Assembly: GCA_022496805.1 (NCBI GenBank)
Contig: CM040089.1
Location: forward strand, 38,300,372-38,364,371
Length of the DNA: 64,000 nt
Origin: Pohlia nutans
Taxonomy: Eukaryota; Streptophyta; Bryopsida; Bryales; Mniaceae
Direction of reading: 5' to 3'
Below are positions 1-64,000 of the stretch, piece after piece. The notes below the pieces were generated by a model. That model had not been told where the DNA came from and made no database searches. It saw only the letters and a program-made list of their open reading frames with translations. Numbering within the stretch: the stretch's first letter is position 1; every line of letters starts with the position of its first letter. A program made the translations under genes and the position numbers.

Positions 1-3000
1 GTTTTTGCCGTTTCGAGAAGATGGGACCCTGTCAGCATGTAGAGGTCTTGGGTGAGTCCAGATGATGGGCTCAAACACCTTGGACGTCGTAAAGAGGCGT
101 CGAGGCGAAAGGGCTGTAGTGGACTCAAAACGAAACCTGGCTTCCTGGAGCTCTAGGATCTCTGAACGTGTGAGGTTTGTTCCAGAGAGAACGGGCCAAA
201 CGTCTCGGATGTCCGGGCGGTCTATGACGAAGTAGCGCTTCGGCCCCATGACACATCGTGCGATTTGGTCAGGACAGAACCAAAAATCAGCAGTTTGGAG
301 TTTGGTCCCTTTGTATTCCATCCTAGTGCCTCGATAGGTTGGAGCAGCTGTGGCCTTACCGCCCTTCGCAATCAACATCTTGCACTTGTTCCCATTCCCC
401 GCTTGTACTGCATAACACTGCTTTCTAGACTTGTGCGATATCCTTGCAATGTGCCATTTCGAGGTGTCACAGTCAGTCTCCAACATCCTAGTCGTGAATG
501 GTACCGGAGATGTAGATCTTGGTGATTGCTCCAAGTTCAATCGGGCAGCGGCAGATCGTGTTTGGACACGAGGATGCGAGAAGTTCACCTTGTCGGGGAG
601 ATGAGAATCTCCCTCACAACCCACTGGCATGTCGAGCTTTCTCTTGACCGAGCCAAACACCTCTTCTCCTTCCAAGTGTGGAACTCAAGTAGAAATCTCC
701 ACAGCCCCAGGCATGTTGTTTATTGCTTCCGCGATCTTCTTGCCATCATGCGATGCCATAGCCCTCTTCAGTTTAAGATCGTGCTTGGACGGACCAATTC
801 CAGACGGACCTCCACATAAGAATGTCCTATAGTTGGTCATTTGCATGAAGGCACGGGCCCAATCATCCGTGGTGGCGACAAAGAGGTCCGAGCCTAGCTT
901 CCCGGAGGCTTGCATCCACTTATTGTGAACGGTCTCTGCCAGGTTGCAGGTTGGAATGTCTGCGAGTTCATCTGCGGTAAGATTCTGCAAAAAAAACATT
1001 CACACAATTTATGTTACATACGATTACTTGGATTTCACCACTACCTAAATATCTTAAAAATAAAACCGGAGTGGTAATAAATAATAATGGCACCAGGCTC
1101 TTCCAAACCCCGCACCTCTTCAGTGGTCTCGGTCCTGAGACGAGTATCTGAGCCTCCCAGGTCTCCAACCAAATGTGCCATGGAACCATGGCACATTTGA
1201 ACCCATGGCGACCAAGGCACCGTGGATGGACTTGGAAACATCGATCTGATTCCAAAACCCGCGCCCCTCGAGGGTGGTCTCGGCCCCGAGACCACAATCT
1301 GACCCTCCCAGTTCTCGAACCAAATGCAGCATGGAACCATGGCACAAGTGACCCCACGGCGACCATCGGACCCTGGATTGACATGGCAACAACCCACTGT
1401 TTCCAAAACCCGCACCCCTGGACAGTGGTCTCGGCCCCGAGACCACTATCTGACCCTCCCAGTTCTCGAACCACGTATGCCATGGAACCAAGACAGAATC
1501 TACACCATGTCAACCTTGGCACTAAGGATTGACATTGCACCAGCAAACTGTTTCTAGAACCCGCACCCTTGGAGAGTGGTCTCGGCCCCGACACCACTAT
1601 CTGACCCTCCCAGTTCTCGAACCACGCATGCCATGGAACCATGGCAGAACCTAATCCATGTCCACCGTGGCACCAGTGATTGACATTGCAACAACAAACT
1701 GTTTCAAGAACCCGCACCCGTGGAGATTGGTCTCGGCCCCGAGACCACTATTTGACCCTCCCATTTCTCGAACCACGTATGCCATGGAACCATGGCAGAA
1801 CCTAATCCATGTCCACCGTGGCACCAAGGATTGACATTGCAACAACAAACGTTTTCAAGAACCCGCACCCGTGGAGATTGGTCTCGGCCCCGAGACCACT
1901 ATCTGACCCTCCCAGTTCTCGAACCACGCATGCCATGGAACCATGGCAGAACCTAATCCATGTCCACCGTGGCACCAAGGATTGACATTGCAACAACAAA
2001 CTTTTTCAAGAACCCGCACCCGTGGAGATTGGTCTCGGCCTCGAGACTACTATCTGACCCTCCCAGTTCTCGAACCATGTATGCCATGGAACCAAGGCAG
2101 AACCTAATCCATGTCCACCGTGGCACCAAGGATTGACATTGCAACAACAAACTTTTTCAAGAACCCGCACCCGTGGAGATTGGTCTCGACCTCGAGACTA
2201 CTATCTGACCCTCCCAGTTCTCGAACCACGTATGCCATGGAACCATGGCAGAACCTAATCCATGTCCACCGTGGCACCAAGGATTGACATGGTAACAACA
2301 AACTGTTTCAAGAACCCGCACCCGTAGAGATTGGTCTCGGCCCCAAGACCACTATCTGACCCTCCTAGTTCTCGAACCACGCATGCCATGGAACCATGGC
2401 AGAACCTCATCCATGTCCACCGTGGCACCAAGGATTGACATGGCAACAGCAAACTGTTTCAAGAACCCGCACCCCTGGAGAGTGGTCTCGGCCCCAAGAC
2501 CACAATCTGACCCTCCCAGTTCTTGAAACACGTAAGCCATGGAACCATAGCAGATCCAAATCCACGGCGAGCATGGCACCAAGATTTGACATGGCAACAG
2601 CGAACTGTTTCCAAAACCCGCACCCCTAGAGAGTGCTCTCGGCCCCGAGACCACTACCTGACCCTCCCAGTTGTTGAACCACATAAGCCATGGAACCACG
2701 GCAGAGAGACACCCAGGGCAACCATGGAACCGAGGACTGACATCAAACAGCAACTTGTTTCCAAAACACGCACCCCTAGAGAGTGCTCTTGGCCCCGAGA
2801 CCACTATCTGACCCTCGAAGGTCTCAAACCAAATGCGGCATGGAACCATGGCACAAGTGACCCCACGGGGACCATGGGACCCTAGATGGACATGGCAACA
2901 GCCCACTGTTTCCAAAACCCGCACCCCTAGAGAGTGGTTTAGGGTCCGGAGCCAAAATATCTGACCCTCGAAAGTCTCAAACCAAACACGCCATGGAACC

Positions 3001-5205
3001 ATGGCACAGAGGATCCCACAGAGGCGAAGAGAGAGAGTGCTTTTTATATTTTACCGTTTCCATGAAACCGCCCCATTGACGGTAGCGAAAGTGCCAGAAG
3101 GCCAACCAATCTTCCAGCTCGCGAATCGCATTTTCAGTGGCAGCACCGAACGAGTACCATCACGCTCTCAACTCAAGGTACATCTTGTCAGCTTCGTCCA
3201 TTGTTTGAGCGTCATTATATTGCTTGCATAGCCTTATGTGTTGATTCTGGAAGTTCTTGGCGATCAACTTCTCAGTGTGCTTGTGCATGCTCATTGCCCA
3301 GTGGAATAGACAAGTCCTTTCACGGTCTACCATGGCCACGGAAGGAGTGCCCGAGCCGTAAACAATGCGAACCGCATTGAAATTTGCTTTTGCGCTGTTG
3401 CACATGAACCCTTTGAAGTTAGGATTTGTAACGCCGTTGTTGTCCATTACTTTGTTCAGGCAGCGCCAGAATATAAGCTGGCCCTCAGTGCCTTCCGTTT
3501 GCATGTCGCACACAGCGATGGTCATCACCTTGCAGTAGGTGGAATCATAGACATGGCAGGCAATGGTGGTCCATGGGTTCACTCTCTTCACGTGGTCGAA
3601 CATGACAAAGCAATTATGAAGGTCTCCACCAGGTTGCATCCTTCTTACGAGGTCGACGCCACTCCCGGGGCCATGAACGAGCATTTTGAAGAGATATACC
3701 TTTTCTTTTCCTTGGCCTGGGAATACATTGTCGTGAATGAACTCGATCTTCGAATGCCGCTTCATGTCTAGAATTTGATCAATCTTGCCTTTGCCTTTTC
3801 CTTGGGCGCGGAAGGTTGCGATCATGTTCCGAACGTTGGGAGAGTTGAGCATGCAAAACTTGTCCATCACCTTGTCTAATTCTTGTCCTTCCAGCATCTC
3901 CTTTGGGCCAAGCCCACTGTGGACAAGAAACGTCTCCAGAAACTCCTTGCTGGCTGCAAGGGCAATGGCCGAGTTCTTGGCGGAGGGAGTCTTGGCGACC
4001 TCCGATGCGATCAAGCCGGTGATGGTCTCCATGGACTCCCTGCACTGTCCTTCGGCGACGGGATGTCGATGATAGCCCAGATGGATATATGCACGGGACA
4101 TGTCGTTGACGTTGAGCACGTAATACACTCGCGCAGTGCAAAAGTCGCGACATGATGGGGCTTTCTTGCAGACTTTACACACAATGGAAGAATCTGGAGG
4201 AGGGCTTTGACGAACACTGAACGCGAAGTTAGTTGTACCCGTCTACTCTGTCTGATTCTTCTTAGACGTTCTAGCAAGATAGTCACAGTCTTCGTTGTCG
4301 CATCGCAAGTGGCCAACACACGTCGACCTCCTCAACTTCAAATCGAAGCTGTTGTGGATGTTGGACGTCGTGGTGCGGCACCATGTGTGGCCGTCATAAC
4401 GCTTGTCCATTCCCTCTATGCTTCGGGCTCCGGAAGAGTGCAAGCGTCCACAACATGGTGGTAACTCGAAGACCACATCCCCGTCAAAGTGGGAGGGAAG
4501 GAACTGCACCTTGTGATATTCTATGCAGTCAAAGTCTATGTGAGCAAGTTCATTCCGAGAGCCAAGAACACTGGACAGCTTCCGCAGACATTGCATAACA
4601 CTAGGACAATTCTGTGAGCTACTAGGATATAGAGGGGGGAGAGAGAACGAGGAAGAGGATGGACTATTGGCGGGGGTGCGGACAGTAGGTGGAGTCGCAA
4701 CAATGGGAGGTGGTTCATTCAAGTTTGGGAGTTGCGAGAGCCGTGATGGTGTTTCCCCCTCCGATTCACTGGACAACTCAATGATGGGGTCTAAAGTCTC
4801 ACGTTTCACGTTACGAAGATTGACCATAATATCTGCAACGGAACGAGTTGGATCTGCAGGTTGCCTACGATCGCGACGTGAGAGAGGTAGCTCTACAGTG
4901 GAAGTATCTGAGGTAGGGGCTAAAATCTCTGTAGATGCAGCGAACTGCTGCAGGGTGAGACCGTATGCTCTGTACTGACCAGGATGGAGGAGCTTGTAGT
5001 AACCCTCGTCCTCTGTACATCTAGACTTTAATATGCCTTCTTTAACTAGTCCCCACTTCTCTAGGACCTCCTCTTCGACCATGATGGAGTCTTTTGCTAG
5101 TCCGAACCGAATGTAGAGAAGGTTAGAGGTGACTTTGACAAAGCCACTTTCACCTACAGGTAGAACTAGTGGGACCTCCTCACCTCTGAAGGAAATGCTG
5201 GCCAT
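1..5205 (-). pseudogene. ORF3, left copy: GCM/WRKY-like zinc finger plus MULE-like transposase (pseudogene, runs off window)
   Basis: Two exons: 5205-3055 and 984-1 (still open at the window edge), joined by a GT-AG intron in phase 0. I start at the ATG at 5205 because it aligns with the start of the copy at 62643. Residues about 265-384 carry RYDGH-W, C-x-G-H-x-x-C, CxxC and a final H-x-HP, the layout of the GCM/WRKY-GCM1 zinc fingers often fused to transposases. Farther on are a D in VYDST (about 554), GFM-N (603, where related transposases usually have D), C-x-x-H (632-635) and an E in NLAET (734), which resembles a MULE-type DDE core. Breaks seen directly: TAG at 4243-4245 (the other copy has W), TGA at 3160-3162 (after A, before W) and TGA at 685-687. 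A serine/proline-rich linker lies between residues 130 and 230. Family assignment is from motif recall, not a search. Confidence 0.72.
1085..3015 (-). repeat. 151-bp satellite array A, inside the ORF3 intron
   Basis: About 13 tandem monomers of 151 bp. Identical words recur at 1651, 1802, 1953, 2104 and 2255. Central monomers (about 1640-2450) are nearly identical, while both edges are diverged. The array fills the intron at 985-3054, leaving only about 100 bases at the 3' side and 40 bases at the 5' side. On the minus strand, which is the sense strand of ORF3, it reads in the same direction as array B does on the sense strand of its host gene. Confidence 0.93.
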
Positions 5206-5887
5206 AAGAAATATCGGGGTAGAGAGATACTGATGGTTTAAGGGAGAGAAACAAATCTGTAATGGAGACACAAGGAGAGTAATTGTGAGAGACATTGAAT
5301 TTGGGTTGAGTATATAACATGATGTCGTTTGCTAGGGAGTGACTATATTCAGAGTCATGGTAGTAATTAAAAACTAGACGGTGAGAGAGGTCTAAGATTG
5401 GAGCCGCCTTGCAACTGATATCAATTTCACTATAAGCAGATGACTAATCTAAACAATGTCAGAGTGTTTTACGGCGCTACCTAAATAAAATTGAGACAGT
5501 CTACAGTGTGCCACATGCATCAGCTCGCAGTTCAAAATTCAGGAGTGGATGTAATGAGACTGGGAAGAATCTGATTCGGCGTAGATGTAGTCATGTAGCA
5601 TATAAAGTGATGTAATATTCAAGAACAGAAGTGGTCGTTGAGTATTATTTATACTGGGAGGACAAACCAACAGTCTTTAAGAAAGTGCAGTTTTTTGTAG
5701 GACTAATCTATGTGCACCCGAAGTCATAATAACAATTGAATAAAGAACAAATTAATTATGGTATCTGTAAATTAATCCCTGTGCTAAAAACTCTTGTTGA
5801 ATATAGGCATATTTTATGTTCAATCATAGAAATCTAAGCTGCACCCTCCACTAATGTAGCTCGGAAGTCTTGTCAATGACCCGAGGA
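5206..5887. other. ORF3-ORF2 spacer, no gene seen
   Basis: AT-rich spacer of 682 bases between the two minus-strand genes; the right copy has 563 bases here. It should hold the ORF3 promoter and the ORF2 3' end. I see no convincing coding exon. Confidence 0.5.
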
Positions 5888-6361
5888 TTAGGTGGGCATG
5901 GTGTTTGGAACGGAATCCCAAAATGGAGGCTTGGGTTCATCGTCAAAGAAGTCCTGGACGGCAGCTGCAATCTCTTCAGGCACAATTGGAACTCCCTCAC
6001 TTTCGAGGGTGCAAGGATCGGGGAGTCCCAACAGTTGGCAAACATAATGAGACCACATGAGCCTCCAGACAAGAGGATGTCGAGGGAGAGAGTCCCAAAT
6101 TCCACACGGGATGCGGTAGAATCGAAGAACATCTTTGTCTAGCAAAATGTTTGCGAGGTCGATGTTGAAGTCTTGAACGTTTGGAAATTCACCCATCCAC
6201 AGTTCCACTGCACCCTCCAAGCTATCGATGGCATTTGTCATCTGCACCAAACGTCCATTCCTTGACACAACGGGATAGTCTTCTTTGTTTCGCATCTCCA
6301 ATCTCCCAATGGATTCCAAGTCAAGCACTTCCTCTAAGCAGCGATCTTCCAAAGGATCCAT
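5888..6361 (-). CDS. ORF2, left copy: conserved protein of unknown function (157 aa)
   Basis: Intact reading frame from ATG at 6361. It is clearly homologous to 61645-62079: shared blocks are GA-ELWM-EFP, ILLDKD-L, PCGIWD, PRHPLVW-LMW, LGLPDPC, VP-EIA-AV-DFFDD and KPPFWD. The protein is acidic and tryptophan-rich, with no signal peptide, membrane segment or zinc ligands. I do not recognise the fold. It sits upstream of ORF3 on the same strand and divergent from ORF1, exactly as in the right copy, so it is best read as an accessory protein of the same module. The two copies are diverged in sequence yet conserved in length and key residues, which suggests past purifying selection. Confidence 0.72.
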   Translation of the reverse strand: MDPLEDRCLEEVLDLESIGRLEMRNKEDYPVVSRNGRLVQMTNAIDSLEGAVELWMGEFPNVQDFNIDLANILLDKDVLRFYRIPCGIWDSLPRHPLVWRLMWSHYVCQLLGLPDPCTLESEGVPIVPEEIAAAVQDFFDDEPKPPFWDSVPNTMPT

Positions 6362-7010
6362 GACTCTCGTTGAGACTTAGTGGCGACGGATTTTCGAGCG
6401 TTTACAACAGCGTTGTAGGCAATGAAAAAGAATGTAGAAGATAAGATATAGGAATTTGAACATAGTTACAGTTATACTGTCTCTGCTCCGCACTAGGATC
6501 TGACTGAAAGCGTCGAATTCAATGTATGAGATTAACATCTAACAATTCATTGACACTGCGAGAACCTAGGCGTGGTCGTAAGCTACAATATATAGTTTGA
6601 TCAAAGACGGCGGAATCAGGATATGTAGATCGTTGAATTACATTCTAAAGCAAGCGTCTGTAATTCATAAAAGCTTGCATATCATGAGTATGTCAGTGAC
6701 AGCTGACACCGAGTATGCGAGTTCTCTTGAAAGGCGTCAATACTAAATAGTGAGGTAGTCGACCAGATAGGACTCCCTACTTACTATAGAACAATTCAAG
6801 ATATTCAAAATTATTTGAAATTAGAGCGGCAAACCACTAGTCTCTTGCACGCTTGAGTTACCGTGGAAGAAAGAATTAGTTGTGAGATAGCTGTGACGGT
6901 TTGATGGACTGCAGGGACTGGAACATAAATAGCGCAGCGTGAACTCGTTTTTGTCACGACAGTTTAAGGCTATGCAGATACTAGAGTTTAAGGATGTTGG
7001 AGATTGATCT
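6362..7010. promoter_or_regulatory. Divergent intergenic region between ORF2 and ORF1
   Basis: 649 bases separate two divergent genes; the right copy has 701 bases in the same place. The arrangement implies a bidirectional promoter. I see no repeats and no obvious shared long motif by eye. Confidence 0.35.
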
Positions 7011-7340
7011 ATGCAGATGCGGGACAATAATTGTTCTCTGAACACAGAGATCACGGTTGGGCTGAGGAGAAGAAAGAAACAAGGGAAGCTACTATATTCT
7101 AGCAGACGTGTATTGCAACGTTCGAGGATGAGATCCACCAAACACATGTCACGTCTGACTGCTGTCGAGGAACTCGTGGGGGTGAGGATTGATTTCAGTG
7201 GAGAAGAAGTGACCAATTTGGCGAGTTTGCATGAAGTTGTCACGGTGGTAGACGCGACGCAGGCAATCATCGAAGACAGTGTCAAAGCGGTGAAGTGTAC
7301 CGCTACACAATCAGCCGTAAGACACTATCCATTGGTGTAA
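7011..7340 (+). CDS. ORF1, left copy: small basic-to-acidic protein, unknown function
   Basis: 109-codon frame from the ATG at 7011. It matches 60943-60569 in order: a basic block (RRRKK / KKKKK), then SS-R-L-RS-MR, then a block of the form ID-F-x-(E/D)-(E/D)-V-x-(N/D)-LA. The N-terminal basic patch could bind nucleic acid or target the nucleus; that is inference. The end is uncertain. The right copy has a strong splice donor inside its frame, so the last 15-25 codons here may be intronic. It is divergent from ORF2 and followed by the methyltransferase gene on the same strand. Confidence 0.5.
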   Translation: MQMRDNNCSLNTEITVGLRRRKKQGKLLYSSRRVLQRSRMRSTKHMSRLTAVEELVGVRIDFSGEEVTNLASLHEVVTVVDATQAIIEDSVKAVKCTATQSAVRHYPLV

Positions 7341-8040
7341 GATGTTAAACCTATTAGAGAGACTGATGTTTTTTTTCTGACTCATCTATGCATTTGAATG
7401 GACTAGAGAAGGAGTTGGATGCATTGCGACATTAATATAGTCCACTACATAAACACCATGCAGTGCGACACGTAGGCCCAACCACAGAATGTAGACCTCC
7501 AGTGTCCATCATTTAAAACCCCTAGACCCATTATGATTCAATAAAATTATATCAATAATGGTTCACTCTAGAACATAGTAAACCCTAAACTAAAATGAGC
7601 ATATAATGATTGGAACCTAGCCAGAAGGTCATGTTTCAGTCAAGATACTTAATGGTATGGCACCCGACCAGGAATAGGTCAGGATCACAACACTTTTATT
7701 AGGGTTGACATCTGGATCACGGTATAGAGACGGCCACTCCCAGCTCGTACAGGCGACCGCCTGATTATCGTGGTCACTGGATCCAGTCCACATCCGCTTG
7801 TTTTTTCGTGGTTGCCGTGTATTATCGTGGTCGCCGTGGTTTTCTCGTGGACTCTAGATGTACGGGATGGAGAAGTGTCGCAACGGAGCAAGTTAGCGAC
7901 CTCGTGTATTCTTCAAAGCGACTTGCTTTGAAGACTCATTGATGTAGCACATAGACTTAAACCCTAACCAATAAACCCTAAACCCTCACTTACGTTTTGC
8001 CACTATGCACACGATTTTCCACTGACAAATCTAGGAAGCA
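7341..8040. other. Spacer between ORF1 and the methyltransferase gene
   Basis: 700 bases with no coding signal. A telomere-like stretch (repeated AAACCCTAA words) lies at 7957-7988, and a single AAACCCTAAACTA at about 7580. Such motifs are common near plant promoters as well as being telomere relics. Confidence 0.5.
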
Positions 8041-8112
8041 ATGGAGTTGACAAGAGGAGAGGCAGCGCCCGTAAGAGGGGCAGACCCACCGGCTGAAGAT
8101 CTCACGCCCCAG
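8041..8112 (+). pseudogene. Candidate first exon of the left ParB-methyltransferase gene
   Basis: ATG at 8041 opens 24 codons rich in A, P, E and R, ending CCCCAG with donor GTATGA in phase 0. The right copy has a comparable A/P/G-rich first exon (60179-60096) ending in phase 0 at GTGGGT, at the same place relative to ORF1. Sequence similarity between the two peptides is weak, so the call rests on position, phase and composition. Confidence 0.35.
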
Positions 8113-8142
8113 GTATGAACCCCCAACTCTGCTATTCTGAAT

Positions 8143-11100
8143 TCACATGAAGACATGTCAATCCTTGGAGCCATGGTCGCCATCGGTTAGATTTAGGCAC
8201 GGTTCGAAGGCTTATGTGGTTAGAGAACTGGGAGGGTCAGATAGTGGTCTCGGGGCCGAGACCAATCTACAAGGGTGCGGGTTCTTGAAACAGTTTGCTG
8301 CTACATTGTCAATCCTAGGAGCCAAGATCGACATGGATTAGGTTCTGCCATGATTCTATGGCATACCTGGTTCGAGAACTGGGAGGGTCAGATAGTGGTC
8401 TCGGGGCCGAGACAACTTCCCAAGGATGCGGGTTCTAGAAACGGTTTGCTGTTGCAATGTCAATCCTTGGAGCCAAGGTAGACATGGATTAGGTTCTGCC
8501 ATGGTTCCATGGCATACCTGGTTCGAGAACTGGGAAGGTCAGATAGTGGTCTCCGGGCCGAGACCACTTCCCAAGGGTGCGGGTTCTAGAAACAGTTTGG
8601 TGTTGCAATGTCACTCCTTGGAGCCAAGGTGGACATTGATTAGGTTCTGCCATGGTTCCATGGCATAGGTGGTTCGAGAACTGGGTGGGTCACATAGTGG
8701 TCTCGGGCCCAGACCAATCTCCAAGGGTGTGGGTTCTTGAAACAGTTTGCTCTTGCATTGTCAATCCTTGGAGCCAAGGTGGACATGGATTAGGTTCTGC
8801 CACGGTTCCACGGCATACCTGGTTCGAGAACTGGGAGGGTCAGATAGTGGTCTCGGCGCCGAGACCACTTCCCAAGGGTGCGGGTTCTGGAAACAGTTTG
8901 CTGTTGCATTGTCAATCCTTGGAGCCAAGGTTGAGATGGAGTGCATTCTGCCATGGTTCCATGGCATACCTGGTTCGAGAACTTGGAGGGTCAGATAGTG
9001 GACTCGGGGCTGAGACCAATCTACAAGGGTGCGGGTTCTTGAAACAGTTTGCTGTTGCAATGTCAATCCTTGGAGCCAAGGTGGACATGGATTAGGTTCT
9101 GCCATCGTTCCATGGCATAGGTGGTTCGAGAACAGGGAGGGTCAGATAGTGGTCTCGGGGCCGAGACCACTTCCCAAAGGTGCGGGTTCTTGAAACAGTT
9201 TGCTGTTGCAATGTCAATCCTTGGAGCCAAGGTGGACATGGATTAGGTTCTGCCATGGTTCCATGGCATAGGTGGTTCGAGAACTGGGAGGGTCAGATAG
9301 TGGTCTCGGGGCCGAGACCACTTCCCAAAGGTGCGGGTTCTAGAAACAGTTTGCTGTTGCAATGTCAATCCTTGGAGCCAGGGTGGACATGGATAAGTTT
9401 CTGCCATGGTTCCATGGCATAGGTGATTCGAGAACTGGAAGGGTTAGACAGTGGTCTCGAGGCCGAGACCACTTCCCAAGGGTGCGGGTTCTTGAAACAG
9501 TTTCCTGGTGCAATGTCAAACCTTGGAGCCAGGGTGGACTTGGATTTGGTTCTGCCATGGTTCCATAGCATACGTGGTTCGAGAACTGCGAGGGTCAGAT
9601 AGTGGTCTCGGGGCCGAGACCAATCTCGATGAGTGCAGGTTCTTGAAACAGTTTGCTGTTGCATTGTCAATCCTTGGAGCGAAGGTTCACATGGAGTGGA
9701 TTCTGCCATGGTTCGATGGCATAGGTGGTTCGAGAACTGGGAGGGTCAGATAGTGGTCTCGTGGCTGAGAGCAATCTCCAAGGGTGCGGGTTCTTGAAAC
9801 AGTTTGCTGTTGCATTGTCAATCCTTGGAGCCAAGGTGGACATGGATTAGATTCTGCCATGGTTCCATGGCATACCTGGTTCGAAGAATAGGGAGAGTCA
9901 GATAGTGAGCTCTGGGCTGAGACCACTTCCCAAGGGTGCGGGTACTATAAACAGTTTGCTGTTGCAATGTCAATCCTTGGAGCCTGGGTGGACATGGATT
10001 AGATTCTGCCATAGTTCCATGGCATACGTGGTTGAAAAACTGGGGGGATCAGATACTCGTCTCGCGCCGAGACCAATCTCCAAGGATACGGAATCTGGAA
10101 ACAGTTTGCTGTTGCTCTGTCAATCCTTGGAGCCAAGGTGGACATCGATTAGGTTCTGCCATGGTTCCATGGCATAGGTGATTCAAGAACTGGGAGGGTC
10201 AGATAGTGGTCACGGGGTCGAGACCACCTCCCAAAGGTGCGGGTTCTGGAATCAGTTTGCCATTGCATTGTCAATCCTTGGAGCCAAGGTTGACATGGAG
10301 TGGATTCTGCCATGGTTCCATGGCATACCTGGTTCGAGAACTGGGAGGGTCAGATAATGGTCTCGTGGCTGAAAGCAATCTCCAAGGGTGCAGGTTCTTA
10401 AAACAGTTTGCTCTTGCATTGTCAACCCTTGGAGCCAAGGTGGACATAGATTAGGTTCCGCCATGGTTCGATGGCATGCTTGGTTCGAGAACTAGGAGGG
10501 TCAGATAGTGGTCTCGGGGCCGAGACCACTTCCCAAGGGTGCGGGTTTTAGCAACAGTTCGCTGTTTCAATGTCAATCCTTGGAGCCAAGGTGGACATGG
10601 ATTAGGTTCTGCCATGGTTCCATAGCATAGGTGATTCGAGAGCTGGGGGGGTCAGATAGTGGTCTCGGGCCGAGACCAATCTCCAAGGGTGCGGGTTCTA
10701 GAAACAGTTTACTGTTGCTTTGTCAATCCTTGGAGCCAAGGTGGACATGGATTAGGTTCTGCCATGGTTCTTAGGCATAGGTGATTTGAGAACTTGGAGG
10801 GTCAGATAGTGGTGTCGAGGCCGAGACCACCTCCCAAAGGTGCGGGTTCTGGAAACTGTTTGCTATTGCATTGTCAATCTTTGGAGCCAAGGCTGACATG
10901 GAGTGGATTCTACCATGGTTCCATGGCATACCTAGTTCAAGAATCGGGAGGGTCAGATAGTGGTCTCGTGGCTGAAAGCAATCTCCAAGGGTGCGGGTTC
11001 TTAAAACAGTTTGCTGTTGCATTGTCAATCCTAGGAGCCAAGGTGGACATGGATTAGGTTCTGCCATGGTTCCATAGCATAGGTGGTTCGAGAACTGGGT

Positions 11101-48775: not shown

Positions 48776-48779
48776 CACC

Positions 48780-52405: not shown

Positions 52406-52545
52406 TTAGAGCCGGGCGTGCTAGCATGTGAGCCTGGGAGCGTGAGCCCAGGAGCCGGTGAGCCTGAGAGCCCACAGAATTTTTCAGTTTTTTTCAAATT
52501 TTTTTTGGTGGACCTATGACCGTGGGCTTTGGGATTTAGGCATTA
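52406..52545 (-). repeat. Dispersed repeat, inverted copy of 25544-25650
   Basis: The reverse complement carries CCCACGGTCATAGGTCC, CTCTCAGGCTC, GCTCACGCTCCCAGGCTC and ACATGCTAGCA in the same order as the left copy, without the 21-bp expansion. Confidence 0.7.
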
Positions 52546-53031
52546 TTTTCTATCGGTTTAAATGGAATAGGGAAAACATGTGTGCGGTTTTAGGCAAATT
52601 GTATGTCAAAAAAATTAGTTAGGCAAAATTGATGAATGTGTGAAATGTAGTGATAATGAAAATGCATGTAACATTCTAATGTGGAGTCAACAGTTTAATA
52701 AAGAAGTTCAATGTGTTAGAATTTTGCAAAAAGTAAGACTTTTAATTGATTTCATGTTTGTGGGGTTTTAGGGGTTTAAAGACCAAAATGTGAGTAGTTT
52801 TAGATTATGTTTTCAATTCTCAAAGTTTGTATCAAGAAACCCAATGTACCTGAATTTATGAAAGCACATAGAATTGAGTTAGAGTAATTGAATAAGAGTG
52901 AAACCATTCAAATATGAAGATGGACAACAAATGCAAATAAAGTGGTAGTGGCCCTTTTAGTCTCACTACAATCCAATAAAAACATCTGTGTCAAATAACA
53001 CATAATAGTCACAATACTCAAGAGTATAGAG
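52546..53031. other. AT-rich 3' flank of the right methyltransferase gene
   Basis: No coding signal; probably 3' UTR and intergenic sequence. Confidence 0.4.
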
Positions 53032-56000
53032 CTATGGCGAAGCCTCAAATGAAGCCGTGGGACTAGAAGATCCGGACATAGACCCCTCTATGTCACTACA
53101 ATCACTACCGGATGCCTCACCATCAGACTCAGCTGCCTCCTGATCAACAAACTCTAAAACACGAGCAGAAACAAACACGGGGCGTGGACTATGATCAGAA
53201 ATACACTGCTCTGCAAACTGTCTTGCAATTCCTTCTGCATAAGACGGCAATGTGAAGGGTTTAGGAGGGCTAGGAAAAAACTCGGGATTAGAGAAGAAAG
53301 GTCGATGAATTGGAGCACTTAGTCCGCCGCATCTGAAAGCAATAAAAACCATAGTATTAGAAATACTGAAAAATAAACGACCAGCAAAGAACTACAAATC
53401 ATAATGCAAAGTAATTACATAAACCGACTTACTTACTGAATCGGGATTTCTTCACAATCGGCTCCGCTACAATGTCCTCATCGTCCATGTCATCCAAGCC
53501 AATAACAACCCTCGGTTGGTGAGGCCTACGAGTCACAGCGGGTCGAATGAGAGGAGCAAGGACCGCATCAAATATAGCCTTGTCCTCCTCTAGCGCTGCG
53601 ATGTGGCGGTCCACATTGCGGCAAGCGAGGATAGAGGCGCCTGCAAAAACAATCACAAAGTAGACAAATGAAAACATACTACAAGGACAAAAATTGAAAG
53701 ATAGTAGACAAACGTAGACAAAATACATGAGAGATAGTAAACAAATGTAATCAATGTACAATGACAAAAATTGGAACATATCATTTAGAATGAGATTGAA
53801 TTACTAACCAGTCGCGGTAGTGCAATCCAACACCACGTGGCCTGGAAAAGAACATGTCTCGATCAGCATCTGCATGAACAAGGTAGATTTCTCTCACGGT
53901 CCTCGCCATGGCACCTCCCCGTTCATCAACTGGTCATCTTTACCCATGTAGTTCTAGAGGATGTTGTCACGTGCAACATCTACTCCGTTACGAAGAAGTG
54001 CAGGGACTGGCTGGAATGCAAAAGAGGATGGATCCCAATTACCATTAACCCTGATCGCCAAACAAATGCCAAAGCGATTGGTCTGCAAAAGAAAAACAAT
54101 TACATAAGTTTAGGAAAACATATACAAAGTACTTCAAAGTAAATCAATGTCAACATTAGTTTTATAAACAAACTCACCGTCAACAACGGATTGGTAGGGG
54201 ATGTCAGGTGAAGACGGTTCATTCCCCACCAGTCCTTCTTCACCTCGAATCCATAGCTCTTGCAGTAACCCAAGATCTTCGATTTTGTAGCTGATCGAAA
54301 AGGGTAAATAATAATAAGAGCACCATCATCCTGCAGGTGTTGATCTGCAAAATCAAAAGCTGGTTGCAAGAATTCTCGAGGTTCTTGGTTCCACTTGGGA
54401 ACGGTGGAGGCAGGATTGGATACGCCTGGGACTGCCAGACCCTCAGGCATATCCACGATCATGAGGTCCACTAATCCCCTGGAATTCAAGTCACCTTTAT
54501 GCGCCCAGGACTTGTCATTCTTGTGCTAGAAGACAAAGAAGACAATCAATGAAGTTAGTTTCAAAAGCACAGTTTAGGGTTTAAACACATTGATTGATTT
54601 ATGCATTAACACAATCCAAACAAAACTTGAACAATTGAAATACAAACATATCACTCATCAATCGTAGTTTCAAAAGCACAGTTTAGGATTTAAACACTTT
54701 GATTGATTTATACATGAACACATTTCAAATCATAATAGAACAAATTATACACAAACATAGTAATCAATGAATTTACTTCCAAGAGCTCATATTATCAATT
54801 ACATTGATTGTAGAAAACATTTGAAATCAAAGTTGTACAAATTAAATTAAAAAACACTTACTTTCTTCATAAATGCCTTCAAGTCGTCATAAACCGGGGG
54901 CAATGGACCAGTTCTAGTTCCAAGAATCTGGCCCAATGATGTGTTCACTATGAACTCATCATTGGTGAAGTCCTCCACTCGTCCAAGGTCAACCGCCACT
55001 GGGCCCTGAGAGAGAAGATCATAGGGAGAATCACGCTTAGTACCTCGGGTAGGGGTCGATTGTAACTCAGAACCACCGTCCATCGTAGAAGAGGCGCCTG
55101 CAGCTTCCTTCTCGTTCTTCGCAGGTTCAACGGTCTTCTTCTTCCCCTTCTCCTTCTCTGCTGCCTTCTCTGCAGCCTTCTGAATCCTTTCCTTCTCCCT
55201 TAAGGCGGCCTTCTCAGCAGCGTCCTTCACTTTCTGAGCCTTCTTACGATCGGACTCCTCCCGTTTTTTCACCGCCTTCTCTTTGGCTTCGTCATCCTCC
55301 ACATCTGCAAGCTCAATGATGTCTTCAGCTGCACTTGCCGCTGCCTCCCGATTCCGCTTCAGCTCAATCTTTTGGATTGGGGTGAAAGATGTGCTGCAAT
55401 CCAGGTACCAAGCGCCAGAGTTCAAATGCGCAGTAGTCCACGTACGCAGCTGAGCCGGCGATAACATACAAGCGTCTGAAGAACGGTCCAACCAAGTGTT
55501 GAGGAAGACAGGGAGATGTTCTTTGGTAATGGCCTTCTTGGGAAGAAGCTCAAACTTGAAATATCTACAACATTTCAATGTTAGTTATATATACAACGAA
55601 CAATCATACATTGACTTAATGTGAGAATAATGACATACAATTCACATTGCATTAAACAAATCCGTGTCAACTGATAACACTCATTCAATTTGAAAACAAA
55701 TTCATATTCATACTCAATAGACAACTCAATAATGAGTTTTAAAGTTCACTTCATAAATTAGAAACATAATAAAAGAATGTAGTAACTGTTTAGAGCACAC
55801 CTGAAGATCACACGTTTCACAGCAATGTCAGATCCTTTGAATGTAGAGAAATCCTCAGATTTCTTGAAATGATCATGCCCCTTGAAGTAAGTTAGAAAGG
55901 CATGGTCCCAGAGTCGAATCCGCCACTCCTCTATGAAAGCGCTCAACGATAGAGGCTCAAGAGGAGAGTCCATGGAGATGGTAATGTTATCAGCACGAAC

Positions 56001-57839
56001 AATATCATCAAAGTACTCTACTGCCTTCTCTTCAATCTGCAATTTTGTGAAGTATATTCATCAACAGTATTTAGTGACCTTGTAAACCGTTGATCACAAA
56101 CCCAACTAGAACTCAAATATAAATCATGAGCAAAAATTAGAGCACATGAACTCAAGTAGATTAAATAGTGTATGAATATCATACCCCAGCCCACCAACAA
56201 GCCTTGACAAGAAATAATCCCAACTTCTCTTCATTCAAAGGCTTGGGAGGGAAACGAGATGCTTCACGGGTTGCCACGGATGAGTTGAACAGTTTAATCC
56301 ATTTAACCTTATGAACGGGAGTTACAGTAGACGTAGCAATGAGTTGAAGTTTCTCCAATGTTAACTCGGGGGTGGAGTTCAACGTCCAATGTCTCTCAAT
56401 CTGCAACGTTTTACCGTGACAATTAGCATCGTGCTTGAATTTCCATATCATTTAAACAGAAGAAAATTAAATTGATTCATACCTCCTTGAGAAAGTCATC
56501 CCCAATTGCAGGGTTTGCAACGGCAGCCAATTTCCCCAGCTTCATGCTCAGCTTGGCCGTCTTCTCTTTAATTGCTGCACGCATAGTGGCAGCAATACTC
56601 CCAGCAGATGTATCGTCAGGATGGGTTTGTTCACGATGCAGTCGAGCAACAAGATCAGCAGCAACAGCGATCTCATGCTAAACATGCACAATCAATTTCA
56701 ACACAATTAGTATTATTCATTTCATACACGTTTCTAAAAATGTTAAAGACAAAATTGATAACAAAAGTAAAGCATGTACCCGAAATATGAAGGCCGTGAA
56801 CACCTCAACCGATAAATGGTACCATGAACGCTTGGAATTGTTCAATTGACATTTCAATATCTCTACGGGAGAGAGGAGTTCATTGAACATCTCCAATGGC
56901 ATTACACCATACTTCTTAACCCTGAATAACGTGTGAACCAGACTGGTCTTCACGTGTGAATCCTCTGTGTGTCTAAATCAATACAATGAAGGAGAAAATG
57001 AATACAATGAAAGAGAGAATGAATACAATGAAACCTTTGATACAATATAAACACAAAGCTCATAACAATATATAAAGAACATGAACAAAATGATTGTTGT
57101 TTGAGAGAAGACTCACTTATTGATGTCATGCATAACTTGCATGACAAGACCAATCCGCCCTTTAGTATCAAGAATGATGGCATCAATGGAGTAGTGCCAT
57201 GAGGGCTCATTCTTATGCAGCCTCTCTATGTGGTTCATCCAAGCTATCCTACGGTGGTTCCCATCACACACGAAGAACATCCGATTAACATACTGTTGCA
57301 TTCCAGGAATACCACGAAGGAATTTGTTGAACTTCTCATTCTCATCATCCCACAATGGCCCCCATTTCATCTTCTCTTCTTCAGTGACCTCTTGAATATC
57401 ACCTTGTTCATTGGTAAGAGAGACATAGAAAACAGCTGCACCATCTCGATAGCCATGCACAAACTCTTCCTCGAGTTTTGTCAAATCACATGAGAGAGTA
57501 GGTCTCACCATCGGCATCACAACCATTCTACACAATGGGATGTGATGCCGCGAGATATGCACAGGCTAGAGTCGAAGGTTAGCAATTGTAGCTACGGCAT
57601 TCAACTTTTGGCGACTACGAATGACATCCTCGCTCGCCCCCAACGCGGCTTCATCCTCATCAACCTCCTCAGCATCATGTTCTGTGGCGTCTTCATCACC
57701 ACCACCTAGAGAAGGTTGAGATCCAGGACTATCCTCCACCGCGTACTGCTGAGGCGTTTGAGAGACAATTTCCTTCACACGAGAAAAATGCACATTTCAT
57801 ATATTTCTACTAAGAACATCACAAGATAACAAAACTTGC

Positions 57840-59160
57840 ACTTAAACAAGCACCAACACGAGCGTCGCAAAGAAATGACCAAGACAGCACTAACACGACC
57901 GTGAAGTGCACCAGGAACATCATGACGAGTACCCATATCAATGGCCGTAACGAGCACCAATGGTCGTAGCAAGCACCGTAACAACTGCAGTTACAAGCTC
58001 GTGACAGCGCCCTTGACGAAATTGATAGCGTCTTGACGACATTGATGGACACCCACATTGATGGCCATTGGCTGTGGCGTGACGAGCATAGCTGTAGCGT
58101 GAGCTGTGGCGTGACGAGCATAGCTGTAGCGCGAGCTGTGGCGTGACGAGCATGGCTAATACAGAGCATGACGAACATAGCTAATACTGAGTGTGACGAG
58201 CATGGCTAATGCATGAGCATGACGAGCGTGGCTATGGCGTGGCTGAGCTGTCTTGGCGTGGTGTGGCTGAGCTCCCACAACAACGACGATGACGAGCATG
58301 AACACATGAGTGGCGAGCACCAGACTACTGTGACGAGCAGCAATGGAAACAAACACAGGAATATAGAGTACCAATACGAGTGTTTAGACGACCACTATAA
58401 GTGAGCCAGCACCCTAAAACACGAACTTCACGATCACCATCACGAGTGGGATCAGTACTGAAATGACCAACAAGAGTACCAACACGAGCTTGAAGACCAC
58501 CAATACGAGCATCACGAGCACCCATTGTAACGAGGTCAAGCACCCACAGCAACGAACAGGGCGAGCACTAGGTCGACCGTGATGAGCACCCATGGCCGCA
58601 AGCTTCGCGGCCCTGACAAGCACCTATAGCGACGAGCAGCAACGCGAGCGTGGCGAATAAAACAAAATGGTATAGAGCACCATCATCAGTGGGAATTTAC
58701 GCGTCCCTGACGAGCACTAACAAGAGCACAGATACGAGCACCAACACGATTTCGAATAACAAGCTTGATCAAGTGGTTCTCGCCAACCATGACCATCGGC
58801 ACCGAGGCTACATCCTCGGAGTCAGGGCTTGATCTTCAAGCCAACAACCTAGTGCTCGTCTAAACAAGCCAGTGCCCTAAACCCTAAGCCACTGGGGAGC
58901 ACTAGAACGAGCGTAACGACCACTAGAACGCGCGTGACGACCACCGCCACGAGCTTTGCGAGCACCAGCTAGACCGCGCAGACCACCAAGACATACGAAC
59001 ATTTTATTCACATGACGAGCACTAGGCGCATATCGCTCATTGTTGACGAGCAAGCAAGGCAGTGAGTCGGAGTACTTGGCGCTCTACTTGATCAAAGAGT
59101 ACTCGGCAGTTAGGACCATCGGGCCTGACGCTACTCCCTCGGAGACAGGGTTTGATCATC
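57840..59160. repeat. Degenerate GACGAGCAC minisatellite in methyltransferase intron 1
   Basis: The phrase ACGAGCAC (variants TGACGAGCATGGCT, GTGACGAGCA) recurs dozens of times with irregular 12-40 base spacing through the 2.3-kb intron 57773-60095. It shares nothing with the 151-bp satellite in the same intron of the left copy. Confidence 0.8.
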
Positions 59161-59940
59161 TCGTTCATTGTGGCAGCTGACAACGCGGTCCAAAATTTTG
59201 ATGTCCTCCATCGCGCGCATGACCTCTACGGCCACAATGCTCAGCTCCAAGAGGGCAGTTAGCACCAGTAACAATTTCATCAGCTATATTTTTAGGAAAA
59301 TATTGGCTGTTGTAGAATAATCCCATTCCTTCTGCTTCGTGGCTTGTATTTGAGAAATAGTAGATCTCATTTGGGATTACCTTGATCAACAAGATTTGGT
59401 GACTTATTACCAGCAAGGGAATCACGAGTATGAAGATAGATCAAGTGTTTGGGAACCAAATGGACCATCGGTCCCGAGGCTTCAACATCGGAGCTTAGCC
59501 TTGATCACTTCAGTTTGGCCATGAGGGCGTGCAACTGAAGGGCGTGCAGACTAAAGGGCCCAGAGTTTCAACTGAAGGGCTTGATTAGCTTGATTAGCTT
59601 GATCAAGGCCAGTAGGGCGGAAATAACCATCGGTACCGAGGGTCGAGTGTCGGAGCAGGGGCTTGATCAGTCGGGGACCAACGCGTGACGAGTGACCAGT
59701 TTCTATGCATGGATTTCCAACGCGAGTTCGACCAACGCGTGACGAGCACCAGTTTCTATGCATGAATTTCCAACGCAAGTTCGACCAACGCGTGACGAGC
59801 ACCAGTTTCTATGCATGGATTTCCAACGCGCTTATTTAGCTTGATCAAGGCCAGTAGGGCGGAAATAACCATCGGTACCGAGGGTCCAGTGTCGGAGCAG
59901 GGGCTTGATCAGTCGGGGACCAACGCGTGACGAGTTCGAC
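58750..59940. repeat. About 70-bp repeat family with GATCAA/TTGATC ends, and nested tandem units
   Basis: Five copies, near 58760, 59090, 59434, 59608 and 59842, share GATCAA, ACCATCGG-(A/T)CC-GAGG, TCGGAG and GGGCTTGATC. The last two are about 95 bp and nearly identical, 234 bp apart. They enclose three 51-bp units containing ACCAGTTTCTATGCATG and CCAACGCGTGACGAG. Confidence 0.8.
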
Positions 59941-60179
59941 CAACGCGTGACGAGTTCGACCAACGCGAGTTCGACCATCGCACTGCCGAGGCGACTAACG
60001 CAAGTACGACTTAGCACTGCCGACGCGACCAGTGCGACTTCTACCAACACGAACCCTAATCATTCAACACGAGAGGAAATAGAGAATAGACCCACCTCTT
60101 CATTTCTTGAGCCAGGGGCGGAAGCTCCAGGGGTGCCAGCGTCGGCCGTGAGGTGCGCCTTTTGCCTCGTCATCGGCAT

Positions 60180-60568
60180 CGTACTGCAAGTTGTGGCGCC
60201 CTCAACAACCTCCGCGCTTAATCTCCCCTGTCATCATTTTTCCCACGCAATGCATCAGTGAGCAATCAAGTTGAGCATACGGCAAGAACCTGAAATGCAC
60301 GAGCTACAATTTGGTACCTCCAGTGTGGAGACACTCACCGTGACTTACGAGCTTGAATCTAAAACCCTATACACGAGTGAGCGCATGATGTACTGGCAAG
60401 ACCCCGAAACCCTAGAGGAGGCTCAGTACTGCCGGACATCCTGCCACGTGTACACTCTTGGACCCATCGGCCACCCGTCATTCTTGTAAACATAATCGGC
60501 CTCATGTAGATTTAATTTCTACCTCGTGTAGAATTTCAATTATCTTCCTTCGTGTGGAAATAAATCAA
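60180..60568. other. Spacer between the methyltransferase gene and ORF1
   Basis: 389 bases; promoter of the minus-strand methyltransferase gene expected here. A 72-codon plus-strand frame at 60271-60489 has no support. Confidence 0.4.
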
Positions 60569-60943
60569 TCACGCCTCGTGCAGACAATATCTAATCCATT
60601 GTATTGTTGCACATCCTAAATAGATGGAGGGGTCATCACTTACATGTTGCCATCCTTCATCATTGTCACTTATAATGTCTTGCTGTGATACCGCATGGTC
60701 TAACATGTCGCTGAATGTCATGATATCTTGAGAGCATGCCAGATCTGCCACATCGTCGTCTCCAAAGTCTATACTCATCCGCGTACAGTCATCAACATCC
60801 TTCGCTTTTGACTTGAGTTTGGGAGGTCTCATCTTTGACCGCTCTAATGCTCGCTTGCTTGAAAACATTAGACGACGACTTTTCTTTTTTTTCTTTGTTC
60901 CAGTAGGTCCCTCAGACTCAAGATGACAGTTTCTGTCAAGCAT
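60569..60943 (-). CDS. ORF1, right copy
   Basis: ATG at 60943. It aligns with 7011-7340: KKKKKSRRL, FSSKRALERSKMRP and a MSIDFGDDDVADLA block. A textbook donor (CAT with GTAAGT at 60643-60638) lies inside the frame, so the true first exon is probably 60943-60644 and the rest of the open frame is intron read-through. I could not place a second exon. It has the same orientation relative to ORF2 and the methyltransferase gene as in the left copy. The N-terminal half is basic and the C-terminal half acidic. Unknown function. Confidence 0.5.
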   Translation of the reverse strand: MLDRNCHLESEGPTGTKKKKKSRRLMFSSKRALERSKMRPPKLKSKAKDVDDCTRMSIDFGDDDVADLACSQDIMTFSDMLDHAVSQQDIISDNDEGWQHVSDDPSIYLGCATIQWIRYCLHEA

Positions 60944-61644
60944 CTGTCTAAAAGGTATTCTACTCTACTAGAGTGCCAACTTAAATACTAGAAACAGTGG
61001 AAAACTCCAAACACTAAATAACATTGAAAAAGATCCATCACATGGAGAAACTACATCTAATATGATTTTCCAAGCCTTGGTATTGTGCTCTTATATACGT
61101 TTTCAGACACTTCATCCAAAAGTATCTGACAAATGTCTCTCCCATATAAATTTGCGAGACTATAATATAAATAACAAGTAGATGCCCAACTTTCACTTAA
61201 TTATACATTGACACCAAGGCATGCTAAATGTATTAGCTTTTGATGGGTAAGTTCCAATAATATAGTCTGTGAGCGCCGTCTTTAATTTCACAATGAAATC
61301 CAATCTCATTGTCAGAGCCCTGACGATGCTTGTGTGAGACATCATAGCTATTATATCACAAATGTTTATTGACAAAATTTACGAATCCTCTCATCATACT
61401 ATTTTCTTCTGTACGCCAATTCCAAATTGCTAACAGCCGCATCTGACCATTAACACTCTCCATATGGATGTGACGAATGACAACTGACGTGATGAATGCA
61501 ACATGTTCTATTTTTTATTTACGTATCTTTGAACGACTACATAACTTGACGCCATGTGGTGGAATTTCAAGCCACTTGAATTGATGGTGTCTCCATACTT
61601 TTGAGTTCTTTGTTTTGTACTTGACATACATGCAGGGATCGCCC
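60944..61644. promoter_or_regulatory. Divergent region between ORF1 and ORF2, right copy
   Basis: 701 bases, AT-rich, with no repeats. A TGCAG acceptor-like site lies 10 bases before the ORF2 ATG, so ORF2 may have a 5' UTR exon in this interval. Confidence 0.35.
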
Positions 61645-62079
61645 ATGGATTCAAACGAGGTGATATGGAGACCATTATGGCGTCGTGATGTCGAAGATTA
61701 CCCTGAATACTTTGTGCATGGCCGCAAAGTTCAAATGGCATACCCTCTTGAGTCCGTCCAAGGAGCGATTGAGCTTTGGATGTCCGAGTTTCCCAGCTGT
61801 GAGAATCGGTTAATTGACATGGCAATCATTCTGCTGGACAAAGACATTCTTGACCAATACGATGTTCCTTGCGGAATATGGGATGACAAGCCAAGGCATC
61901 CCTTAGTATGGCATCTTATGTGGTGTCATAAAGTCTGCAACATGCTCGGCCTTCCTGACCCATGCAATATTGAGTGCAACGACATAAGAATTGTGCCAAA
62001 AGAGATTGCAGATGCAGTAGAAGATTTTTTTGACGATCAAGCAAAACCTCCCTTTTGGGACACACTAGAACAGTATTAG
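61645..62079 (+). CDS. ORF2, right copy (144 aa)
   Basis: Intact from ATG at 61645, chosen because it aligns with the left copy and because the upstream in-frame ATG lies before an acceptor-like TGCAG. Conserved blocks with 5888-6361: EDYP, G-x-VQM, GAIELWM-EFP, ILLDKD, PCGIWD, PRHPLVWHLMW, LGLPDPC and KPPFWD. Intact in both copies although ORF3 is broken in both. Function unknown. Confidence 0.72.
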   Translation: MDSNEVIWRPLWRRDVEDYPEYFVHGRKVQMAYPLESVQGAIELWMSEFPSCENRLIDMAIILLDKDILDQYDVPCGIWDDKPRHPLVWHLMWCHKVCNMLGLPDPCNIECNDIRIVPKEIADAVEDFFDDQAKPPFWDTLEQY

Positions 62080-62642
62080 GCCGTGCAGAGGAATATCATA
62101 TGCATCCATGTTAGAATCGTTTCATGTGGATATGCACGAATTGTGCCTTCATCCAGTCATGTATGTACAACAATGGATGTATGGAATAAAGACTACTTCC
62201 GAGATGATTGATTGTGAACTACCGTCATAATGAGGTCATTCTCGTTTTAGAAAGTTTTTAAATGACACTTCACATTATTTGTTTAGTCGTGGATGACAAA
62301 CATCAGTGCTTATCCAATAATACATTCGCACAGCATATACCAATGCCAATCAATCACGTACTAATTCTTTATTGTACACTAATAAAGCACTTGTCAGTCT
62401 TTCCACCTTGCAGTTTTCATTTCCTCTTGACAGCCACGTTGTGCGTCAAGTTTAGAGCGCCGTCAAGACCCATGAAGCCTTGTCGTACCTTGAATTATTG
62501 TGATTCCTATTTCCCCTGTACTGTTGTATATATCTTCAATGCATTTGGCTTCATTTGCATCTCACTTCCCCATTAGTATTGTCCTCTATGTATTACGCAT
62601 ATTAGTTCTATTAGATTCACATTAGCCCACTGCCTACTTTCT
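62080..62642. other. ORF2-ORF3 spacer, right copy
   Basis: 563 bases, matching the 682-base spacer of the left copy in position. No gene. Confidence 0.45.
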
Positions 62643-64000
62643 ATGGCCAACATCCTTACTGCAGGTCACGATGTCCCCTTGAAGGTGCCGATTGGTGAAG
62701 AAGGGTTTGTCCGAGTGCCTGCCCATCTCTTGCATATTCGTTTTGGTTTTTGTGAGTCTTCCATCATGTTGGAAGAAGAGGTCTTAGCCAACTATGGATT
62801 CATCAAGGAGGCAGTCTTGCAGTCAAAATGTAGTGATAAGGAAGGATTCTATTGGCTTCTCTATCCTGGGCAATATAGGGCGTATGGTTTAGCTCCTAAG
62901 ACAGTAGCTGCCTCCACTGAGATCCTTGCACCCATGTCAGATGGTTCTACTGTTCAACTACCTCTTTCACGTGCCAATAGTCATCAGTCCTCTGACCAAG
63001 GACGTTCTGTGACTAACATCATGATGAAACTTCGTAATGTCAAGCAGGAGCCAGTGGAACCATTAATTGATTTGACTTCTGAGTCTGATGGAGATACTCG
63101 CTCGACTTCACGTGCATGTCAACATCCAAGTAAATTAGTCTCCTTTCCCTCTTCATCTAATACTCCCTCTGGAACTCGCACTCCAGCCTATACTCCTACC
63201 TCGTCATCTTGGTCTCTTCCTCCAGTATTTCCAGTATCTTCAGAGTGTTTGAGTGTGATGCATTGCCTTAGAAAGCTGTCCAGTGTTCCACGTTGTCGTA
63301 ACGAATTAGCTCAAATAGATTTTGATGCTGTCGAGTATCACAAAGTCAAATTCCTTCCCACCAAGTTCGATGGAAATGTCGTGTTTGAATTGCCACCTTG
63401 TCGTGGAAGTGCTAATTCTTCTATGGAGGGAATGGACAAGCGCTACGACGGTCACGCATGGTGTCGCACATTGACGTCTAATATCCACAACAACCTAGGT
63501 TTGAAGTTCAAAAGGTCGAGTTGCGTGGGGCATTTGGTTTGCAAGAACAAAGACTGTGATTACTTTGCGAGGACTTCAAAGGTGAACGAGACGGAGTGGT
63601 CTGGCACCACTACACTTCCTTTTGGTGTATGTCAAGACCCCCCTGCAGATTCTTCACTAGTCTGCAAAGTTTGCAAGAAGCCCCCTACCTACATTGATTT
63701 TTGTGCAGCTCGTATCTATTACGTGGTCAGCACTGGTGACATGTCGCGAGCGTGCATCCATTTAGGAAATCACAAACACCCGGTGGCTTAAGGACAATGC
63801 AGGGAGACTATGGAGACTGTAACGGAGTTGATTGCTCAAGAGGTGGCCAAGACTCCTTCGGCAAAGAATTCTACCATTGCATTGGCTGCAAGCAAAGAAT
63901 TTTTGGAGACGTTCCTCATTCACAATGGGGACGGACCCAAGGAGATGCTCCGCAAAGAGGCTCTAGAAAAAGTTATGGATAAATTCCAACTCCTCAGTTC
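62643..64000 (+). pseudogene. ORF3, right copy (zinc finger and start of transposase region; runs off window)
   Basis: ATG at 62643, preceded by AT-rich sequence. It aligns with the left copy from the first codons (VPIGEEGFVRV, LLHIRFGF, YPGQYRAYGL, STEILAPMSD), then an S/T/P linker, then the GCM-like finger (KRYDGHAWCR, CVGHLVCKNKDCDYFARTSK, VCKVCKK, IHLGNHKHP). A TAA at 63789-63791 interrupts it; the left copy has GAA there, so this is a G-to-T change. Past the stop, the same frame continues with GQCRETMETVTELIAQEVAK to the window end. It keeps W codons where the left copy has TAG. Confidence 0.75.

Follow-up and report, generated by a model that had tools for sequence, protein, structure and literature searches.

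According to its published description, the Ectocarpus transposon Sola1-1_Ec32 is a giant DNA transposon of 21.5 kb with one long ParB-like/methyltransferase gene, encoding 1104 aa, on the strand opposite its transposase. The VANDAL Mutator-like elements (MULEs) of Arabidopsis carry several genes, with fast-changing tandem arrays upstream of those genes and within their introns, and the arrays of VANDAL21, which lie in the same kinds of places as those reported below, are read by the protein VANC (PMC5735166). Genes that act on epigenetic marks have also been recorded on other transposons, with TET/JBP on DNA transposons in fungi and a SET histone methyltransferase on Harbinger and MuDR families of Phytophthora (PMC12730594). 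Here we analyse 64,000 nucleotides of Pohlia nutans (GCA_022496805.1, contig CM040089.1, positions 38,300,372 to 38,364,371 of the forward strand; hereafter the window, to which all coordinates refer), both ends of which had been said in an earlier note to carry four genes, ORF3, ORF2, ORF1 and a methyltransferase-like gene, in mirrored order. All four were located at both ends, and they belong to a large multigene MULE family of 13.9 to ~26 kb in which the ParB-like/methyltransferase-like gene and ORF3 lie opposite to ORF1 and ORF2 is co-oriented with ORF1.

These elements resemble Sola1-1_Ec32, as far as its description goes, in the length of the accessory protein (1104 aa there, ~1,137 codons here) and differ from it in their transposase, which is of the Sola1 type there and of the MULE type here; an altered catalytic motif, ORF2 and ORF3, and lineage-specific arrays are features of the present elements. 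The protein set against silencing in VANDAL elements is VANC, and the description of them in PMC5735166 includes no ParB or methyltransferase-like protein. The TET/JBP and SET transposons likewise bear a gene acting on epigenetic marks, in the SET case on MuDR as well, although as described that gene encodes a dioxygenase or histone methyltransferase there and a ParB-like/DNA-methyltransferase-like protein here (PMC12730594). Our search of the open-access literature, with subscription papers and preprints outside it, found no MULE with a ParB-methyltransferase gene, but ParB-methyltransferase genes are already known from algal giant transposons, so the type of accessory gene is not itself new. 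What is new is that MULEs bear such a gene, in three lineages that have diverged from one another, that it is under purifying selection although its catalytic motif is altered, and that the arrays are lineage-specific.

The family joins two scattered observations, the ParB-methyltransferase genes on giant transposons of algae and the arrays that VANDAL MULEs read by a protein of their own. Many copies are 90-97% identical and a good part have an open ORF1 frame, making an epigenetic arms race between transposon and host testable in one genome. A strongly selected gene with a changed active site also raises the question of whether transposon methyltransferases bind rather than methylate, and, if our interpretation is true, the methyltransferase-like protein may help the element to handle host silencing.

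A MULE family in three lineages

ORF1 encodes a DDE transposase whose fold is IS256-like and whose catalytic residues are numbered D535, D601 and E732. In a VIA-align structure comparison the rows for ISCth4, GCM, integrases and Hermes stood out, the other rows being common-looking arrangements; ISCth4, of the IS256 family, shares with ORF1 the fold of the transposase catalytic domain and differs from the elements here in being a bacterial insertion sequence. A zinc domain of the GCM/WRKY type together with a SWIM domain is common, though not universal, in MULE transposases, and MULE target-site duplications measure 8-11 bp. All six copies in which both ends were seen, five of the A lineage and the C element introduced below, are flanked by duplications of 9-10 bp; duplications of 8-10 bp are recorded for MULEs in PMC6446971. 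We are nearly certain that the elements move by MULE transposition.

Lineage A includes the element at the right end of the window, which extends 2,852 bp past the window end into the right-hand neighbouring locus (L029) and is bounded by a 10-bp target duplication. The left end of the A element reads CGGGCGTGCTAGCATGTGAGCC, ten aligned copies share the right-end bases ...CACATGCTAGCGTCGTTG, and the two termini have 16 identical bases (GCTAGCATGTGAGCCT) after a mostly differing 7-base tip. Four further A copies have target duplications of their own, namely GCCATGTTC (copy C1), TACCGGGAT (C15), ATCATGCCAT (C2b) and AATACCATGT (C16), and complete A copies measure 14,440-17,838 bp. Among the 11 A copies fetched, the right end of C2a was not found, nor was the left end of C7 and C11 within the 1.5 kb fetched. 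The alignment of outer flanks proposed earlier thus yielded both inverted repeats (the 16-bp terminal match) and target duplications, and exact termini, matched duplications and a MULE-type transposase bear out the reading of the locus as a large multigene DNA transposon. The right element is laid out as follows.

52403..52412, no strand: left target-site duplication GTGTTAGAGC; second copy after the right terminus, L029:2853
52413..64000, + strand: right A-lineage MULE, running on to 66852 (L029:2852); full length 14,440 bp
53032..60179, - strand: ParB-like/methyltransferase-like gene, 11 exons, 1,137 codons, 10/10 introns GT-AG
60096-60179, 57117-57772, 56780-56972, 56483-56677, 56185-56400, 55801-56036, 54862-55564, 54178-54525, 53809-54082, 53433-53640, 53032-53332, - strand: exons of that gene
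57117..57565, - strand: ParB-like part of exon 2, with the DGNHR motif
54178..54525, - strand: exon 8 of the methyltransferase gene, bearing the altered motif IV (VDMPE)
57773..60095, - strand: intron 1 of the methyltransferase gene; short imperfect repeats of GTGACGAGCA type and one 53-bp tandem array at 59676-59830
60569..60943, - strand: ORF3, 124 aa, N-terminal half basic
61645..62079, + strand: ORF2, 144 aa
62643..64000, + strand: exon 1 of ORF1 (transposase), truncated at the window end; one premature stop, TAA 63789-63791

Searches of the organism's own genome covered the 698 Mb assembly, the window lying on contig C5, and gave at least 108 ORF1 matches across many contigs (the best 108 of 1,967 candidates). 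Gene content was examined in 14 copies, 12 that include both window copies plus the C element and copy B_C3; the first copies were picked by good ORF1 matches, mostly with open frames, and the counts therefore describe a non-random sample. Three lineages share the gene arrangement, with ORF1 identity to A of ~70% and 44-47%. ORF3 is present in 14/14 copies, weakly so in the C element (E 8.5e-5 over 37 residues), and methyltransferase sequence in 11/14, partial in the left window copy (W_L) and only partly fetched in others; in the 9-10 kb fetched around C4, C5a and C2a we found no methyltransferase exon, save for an exon-1-like match in C2a (E 0.008). C1, C12, C16, C5a and the C element yielded no ORF2. 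The proposed check on whether ORF2 occurs with its neighbours was made against ORF1: of the 108 best-scored ORF1 matches, 68 have ORF2 on the same strand and no more than 3 kb upstream (median distance 573 bp; chance expectation 0.045), and 68 of the 150 best-scored ORF2 matches (from 582 candidates) are paired with ORF1. Both pairing counts are lower bounds, because each set holds best-scored candidates only.

A viral or proviral origin is unsupported; viral contigs searched with ORF1 and phages searched with a methyltransferase piece of the C lineage gave no relative.

The accessory protein and the arrays

The methyltransferase-like gene keeps most of its exon borders in C15, C7, C2b and C1, local exceptions aside; the right window copy has three premature stops, and exons 2-11 of C7, whose 5' end is undefined, have no internal stop. 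Its motifs run in the order ParB-like DGNHR, VDMPE in place of DPPY/SPPY, PWRGPREK and LDCTTATGAS, the motif names following the beta-class DNA methyltransferases. DGNHR is invariant in the four sequences compared. Motif IV reads VDMPE in lineage A, VDMLE in B and ADLPE in C, and neither DPPY nor SPPY occurs in any copy read. A Pfam search gave no ParB match for the ParB-like exon, and neither the family libraries, apart from a PHROG ParB profile, nor the sequences of solved structures held anything useful for the accessory proteins. When the spliced, full-length methyltransferase was compared with 5.8 billion proteins, none of 7,990 scored candidates reached E <= 1e-3, in a test that introns weaken.

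Such a protein could be an active methyltransferase, acting on N6-adenine or N4-cytosine and so marking the DNA of the element that encodes it, as has been proposed for its algal relatives, so far as that source describes them (PMC12477816). The beta-class order of motifs IV, X (PWRGPREK) and I would fit, as would a Foldseek search with a low-confidence model of the C-lineage piece, in which all 50 listed rows were SAM (S-adenosylmethionine)-dependent transferases and nearly all of these methyltransferases, the best being M1.HpyAVI (E 2.9e-4), with CcrM at E 1.7e-3; given the confidence of the model, these matches are supporting evidence only. Methylation is nevertheless doubtful, because the catalytic motif is DMPE, DMLE or DLPE in the A, B and C lineages, and we think it unlikely that the accessory protein still methylates DNA.

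The arrays occupy non-coding parts of the elements. A single 151-bp unit builds those of the left window copy at three places:

1101..3006, no strand: 151-bp minisatellite in the ORF1 intron
8155..17539, no strand: 151-bp minisatellite in the methyltransferase gene, after exon 1
20312..21119, no strand: 151-bp minisatellite lying between methyltransferase gene and element terminus

Different units occur in other copies, either near the left end or within intron 1 of the methyltransferase gene: a 12-bp unit, TGCCTTGCTCAC, in C1, C12 and C5a with one short array in C16; arrays of CACGACGCCGTGACGAG in C15 and C2b; and 85-bp units spanning ~5 kb in B_C3. The C element has a 79-bp unit within its ORF1 intron. 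We considered the arrays as palindromic parS-like sites. This fits the left copy, whose three arrays contain 67 of the window's 68 near-palindromes GTCTCGGNNCCGAGAC (<=2 mismatches), but it was dropped because the arrays of other copies are not clearly palindromic.

Taken together, a large multigene MULE family, perhaps with a self-binding accessory protein, is probably the best explanation of these observations. In such an element ORF1 would cut and paste the transposon, ORF2 and ORF3 would be small partners, and the ParB-like/methyltransferase-like protein, in steps that are less certain, might bind the element's own arrays and terminal GTGAGC-rich repeats and, once bound, keep the chromatin of the element accessible. 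The altered catalytic motif leads us to suppose that this protein may act mainly by binding DNA, and perhaps SAM. Self-binding or anti-silencing by the accessory protein, taken as a claim of its own, is tentative, at somewhat under an even chance. Doubtful to a greater degree is the fuller proposal of self-recognition against silencing, in which a ParB-like and catalytically altered methyltransferase protein would read fast-turnover arrays in introns or near the element end, convergently with VANDAL and VANC, and its half of the element would be swapped by recombination between transposase lineages.

Several observations weigh against this interpretation at one level or another. No Pfam MULE profile matched ORF1, which gave SWIM alone and under the cut-off; C4 has lost catalytic residues (G at D601, K at E732), and N stands at D601 in ORF1 of the left window copy and of another B copy (L039). 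ORF2 occurs in 9/14 copies, so that not every copy has four genes, and copies without it have amplified. The ParB assignment consists of the DGNHR motif and the PHROG match at E 0.23, and the structure model of the methyltransferase piece has a mean predicted local distance difference test score (pLDDT) of 41.9. C2a has no array at the setting used, array type does not correspond to methyltransferase type across copies, and in 12 copies tandem repeats take up 24,689 of 211,417 bases inside the elements (11.7%) and 5,740 of 70,583 outside (8.1%), with no clear enrichment.

The accessory protein might instead serve transposition, through end synapsis or replication timing, and have no part in silencing. 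The termini do hold repeated GTGAGCC units, and GTGAGC is common to the termini and to one array type (C1, C16, C12 and C5a), but the arrays of other lineages are without the motif, and we rate this role lower than methylation, as distinctly improbable.

Selection, recombination and gene capture

Between diverged copies the methyltransferase-like gene is under strong purifying selection, as judged from coding-sequence comparison. For C7 against the right window copy (W_R), omega, the ratio of nonsynonymous to synonymous divergence, is 0.05 in exon 2 and 0.09, 0.09, 0.03, 0.11 and 0.08 in exons 3, 4, 6, 7 and 8, at a synonymous divergence (dS) of 0.32-1.0; exon 5 is saturated, and exons 9 and 10 give 0.19 and 0.15. 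The same pair gives 0.09 and 0.15 for ORF1, 0.28 for ORF2 and 0.25 for ORF3. These estimates leave out exon 11 and methyltransferase pairs involving the left window copy, whose values combine that copy with the neighbouring third element. The claim rests on diverged pairs, because close pairs are noisy and reach values near or above 1 in several small exons (exon 4, 1.89 for C1/C16 and 0.96 for W_R/C1; exon 5, 1.12 for C1/C16; exon 10, 0.96 for W_R/C1). ORF1 exon 1 hardly differs between C7 and C15 (dS 0.009), and yet their ParB-like exons have diverged to a dS of 1.0, from which we infer that recombination has exchanged halves of the element between lineages.

MULEs often capture host genes, and the extra genes could in principle be host-derived passengers acquired in the manner of Pack-MULEs. 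Copies that lack ORF2 or the methyltransferase gene would agree with such an origin, as would a passage in PMC6446971 on the uptake of host genes by MULEs. Against it stand one gene arrangement kept in three lineages as diverged in ORF1 as these, the conservation of splice sites, and the strong purifying selection seen when diverged copies are compared; recent capture was rejected on these grounds, and we consider capture in general very improbable.

Two independent insertions in one window

The mirrored pair consists of two independent insertions, the left one with a further element inside it. This agrees with the alternative raised in the earlier note that two insertions face each other, the two being separate elements with their own termini and from different subfamilies. 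A host gene cluster duplicated by segmental inversion, to which we give practically no credence, would account for the mirrored layout and nothing else. It is ruled out by the membership of the copies in different subfamilies, each with its own termini and arrays, besides which there are exact termini, target duplications and ORF1 matches spread over many contigs. Between left and right copies protein identity is 61-77% for the ORF1 pieces, 60% for ORF2, 35% for ORF3 and 51% for the exon of the methyltransferase gene that bears motif IV. The spacers noted earlier recur for ORF2-ORF1 (682 and 563), for ORF3-methyltransferase (700 and 389) and for one ORF2-ORF3 interval (701); the other, given as 649, is 655, a matter of start choice. 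Neither copy is intact, because both ORF1 genes have premature stops, the left copy has lost exons and the right methyltransferase gene has stops. The left element, whose features follow (arrays above), continues into the left-hand neighbouring locus, L030.

1..25647, - strand: left B-lineage MULE, mirrored; ORF1-side end cut ~570 bp outside the window
5205-3055 (exon 1), 3054-985 (intron), 984 into L030 (exon 2), - strand: ORF1, splice sites read from sequence
5888..6361, - strand: ORF2, 157 aa
7017..7340, + strand: ORF3, 107 aa
8041..8112, + strand: methyltransferase exon 1, from position and 5' splice site
17536..19755, + strand: surviving 3' exons of the methyltransferase gene, motif IV VDMLE
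25625..25647, - strand: terminus, inward reading CCGGGAATGCTAGCATGTGAGCC

Three premature stops, beginning at 4243-4245, break the frame of left ORF1, in which N also replaces the second catalytic aspartate, and the ParB-like exons of the left methyltransferase gene are gone, with the minisatellite at 8155-17539 in their place. The element is interrupted by a complete element of the third lineage, C, of 13,870 bp with the duplication ATATAGATC and imperfect inverted termini. ORF1 of this C element (L030, L037) is 47% identical to A in exon 1 and 44% in exon 2, and no ORF2 match lies between its ORF3 and ORF1. Between the left methyltransferase gene and terminus, two minus-strand frames of 428 and 253 aa, measured stop to stop, lie at 21617-23934; the 428-aa frame weakly matches 'Putative plant transposon protein' (E 0.014) and coiled-coil models, and the two may be an insertion or captured gene.

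Nesting was also seen elsewhere. GC-rich minisatellites with GGGAGGCCTCCC cores flank the right element (47222-50752 and L029:3580-4598), with a similar unit of 136-138 bp on both sides, which suggests that it inserted into another element rich in repeats. Past the right end of C2b (G000:C2:48157000-48176999), a C-lineage element has its methyltransferase-like gene interrupted by an inserted element of lineage A. Among A copies, C1, C12, C16 and C5a have lost ~845 bp including ORF2, their ORF1-side DNA being 94-99% identical to that of the ORF2-bearing C4, and C4, with its replaced catalytic residues, nonetheless belongs to a recently amplified group. Between the two MULEs of the window lies a retrotransposon on the minus strand (31860-37725), which we take from its reading frame to be of the Copia type; its repeats, at 31860-32125 and 37461-37725, are 266 bp long and 96.2% identical.
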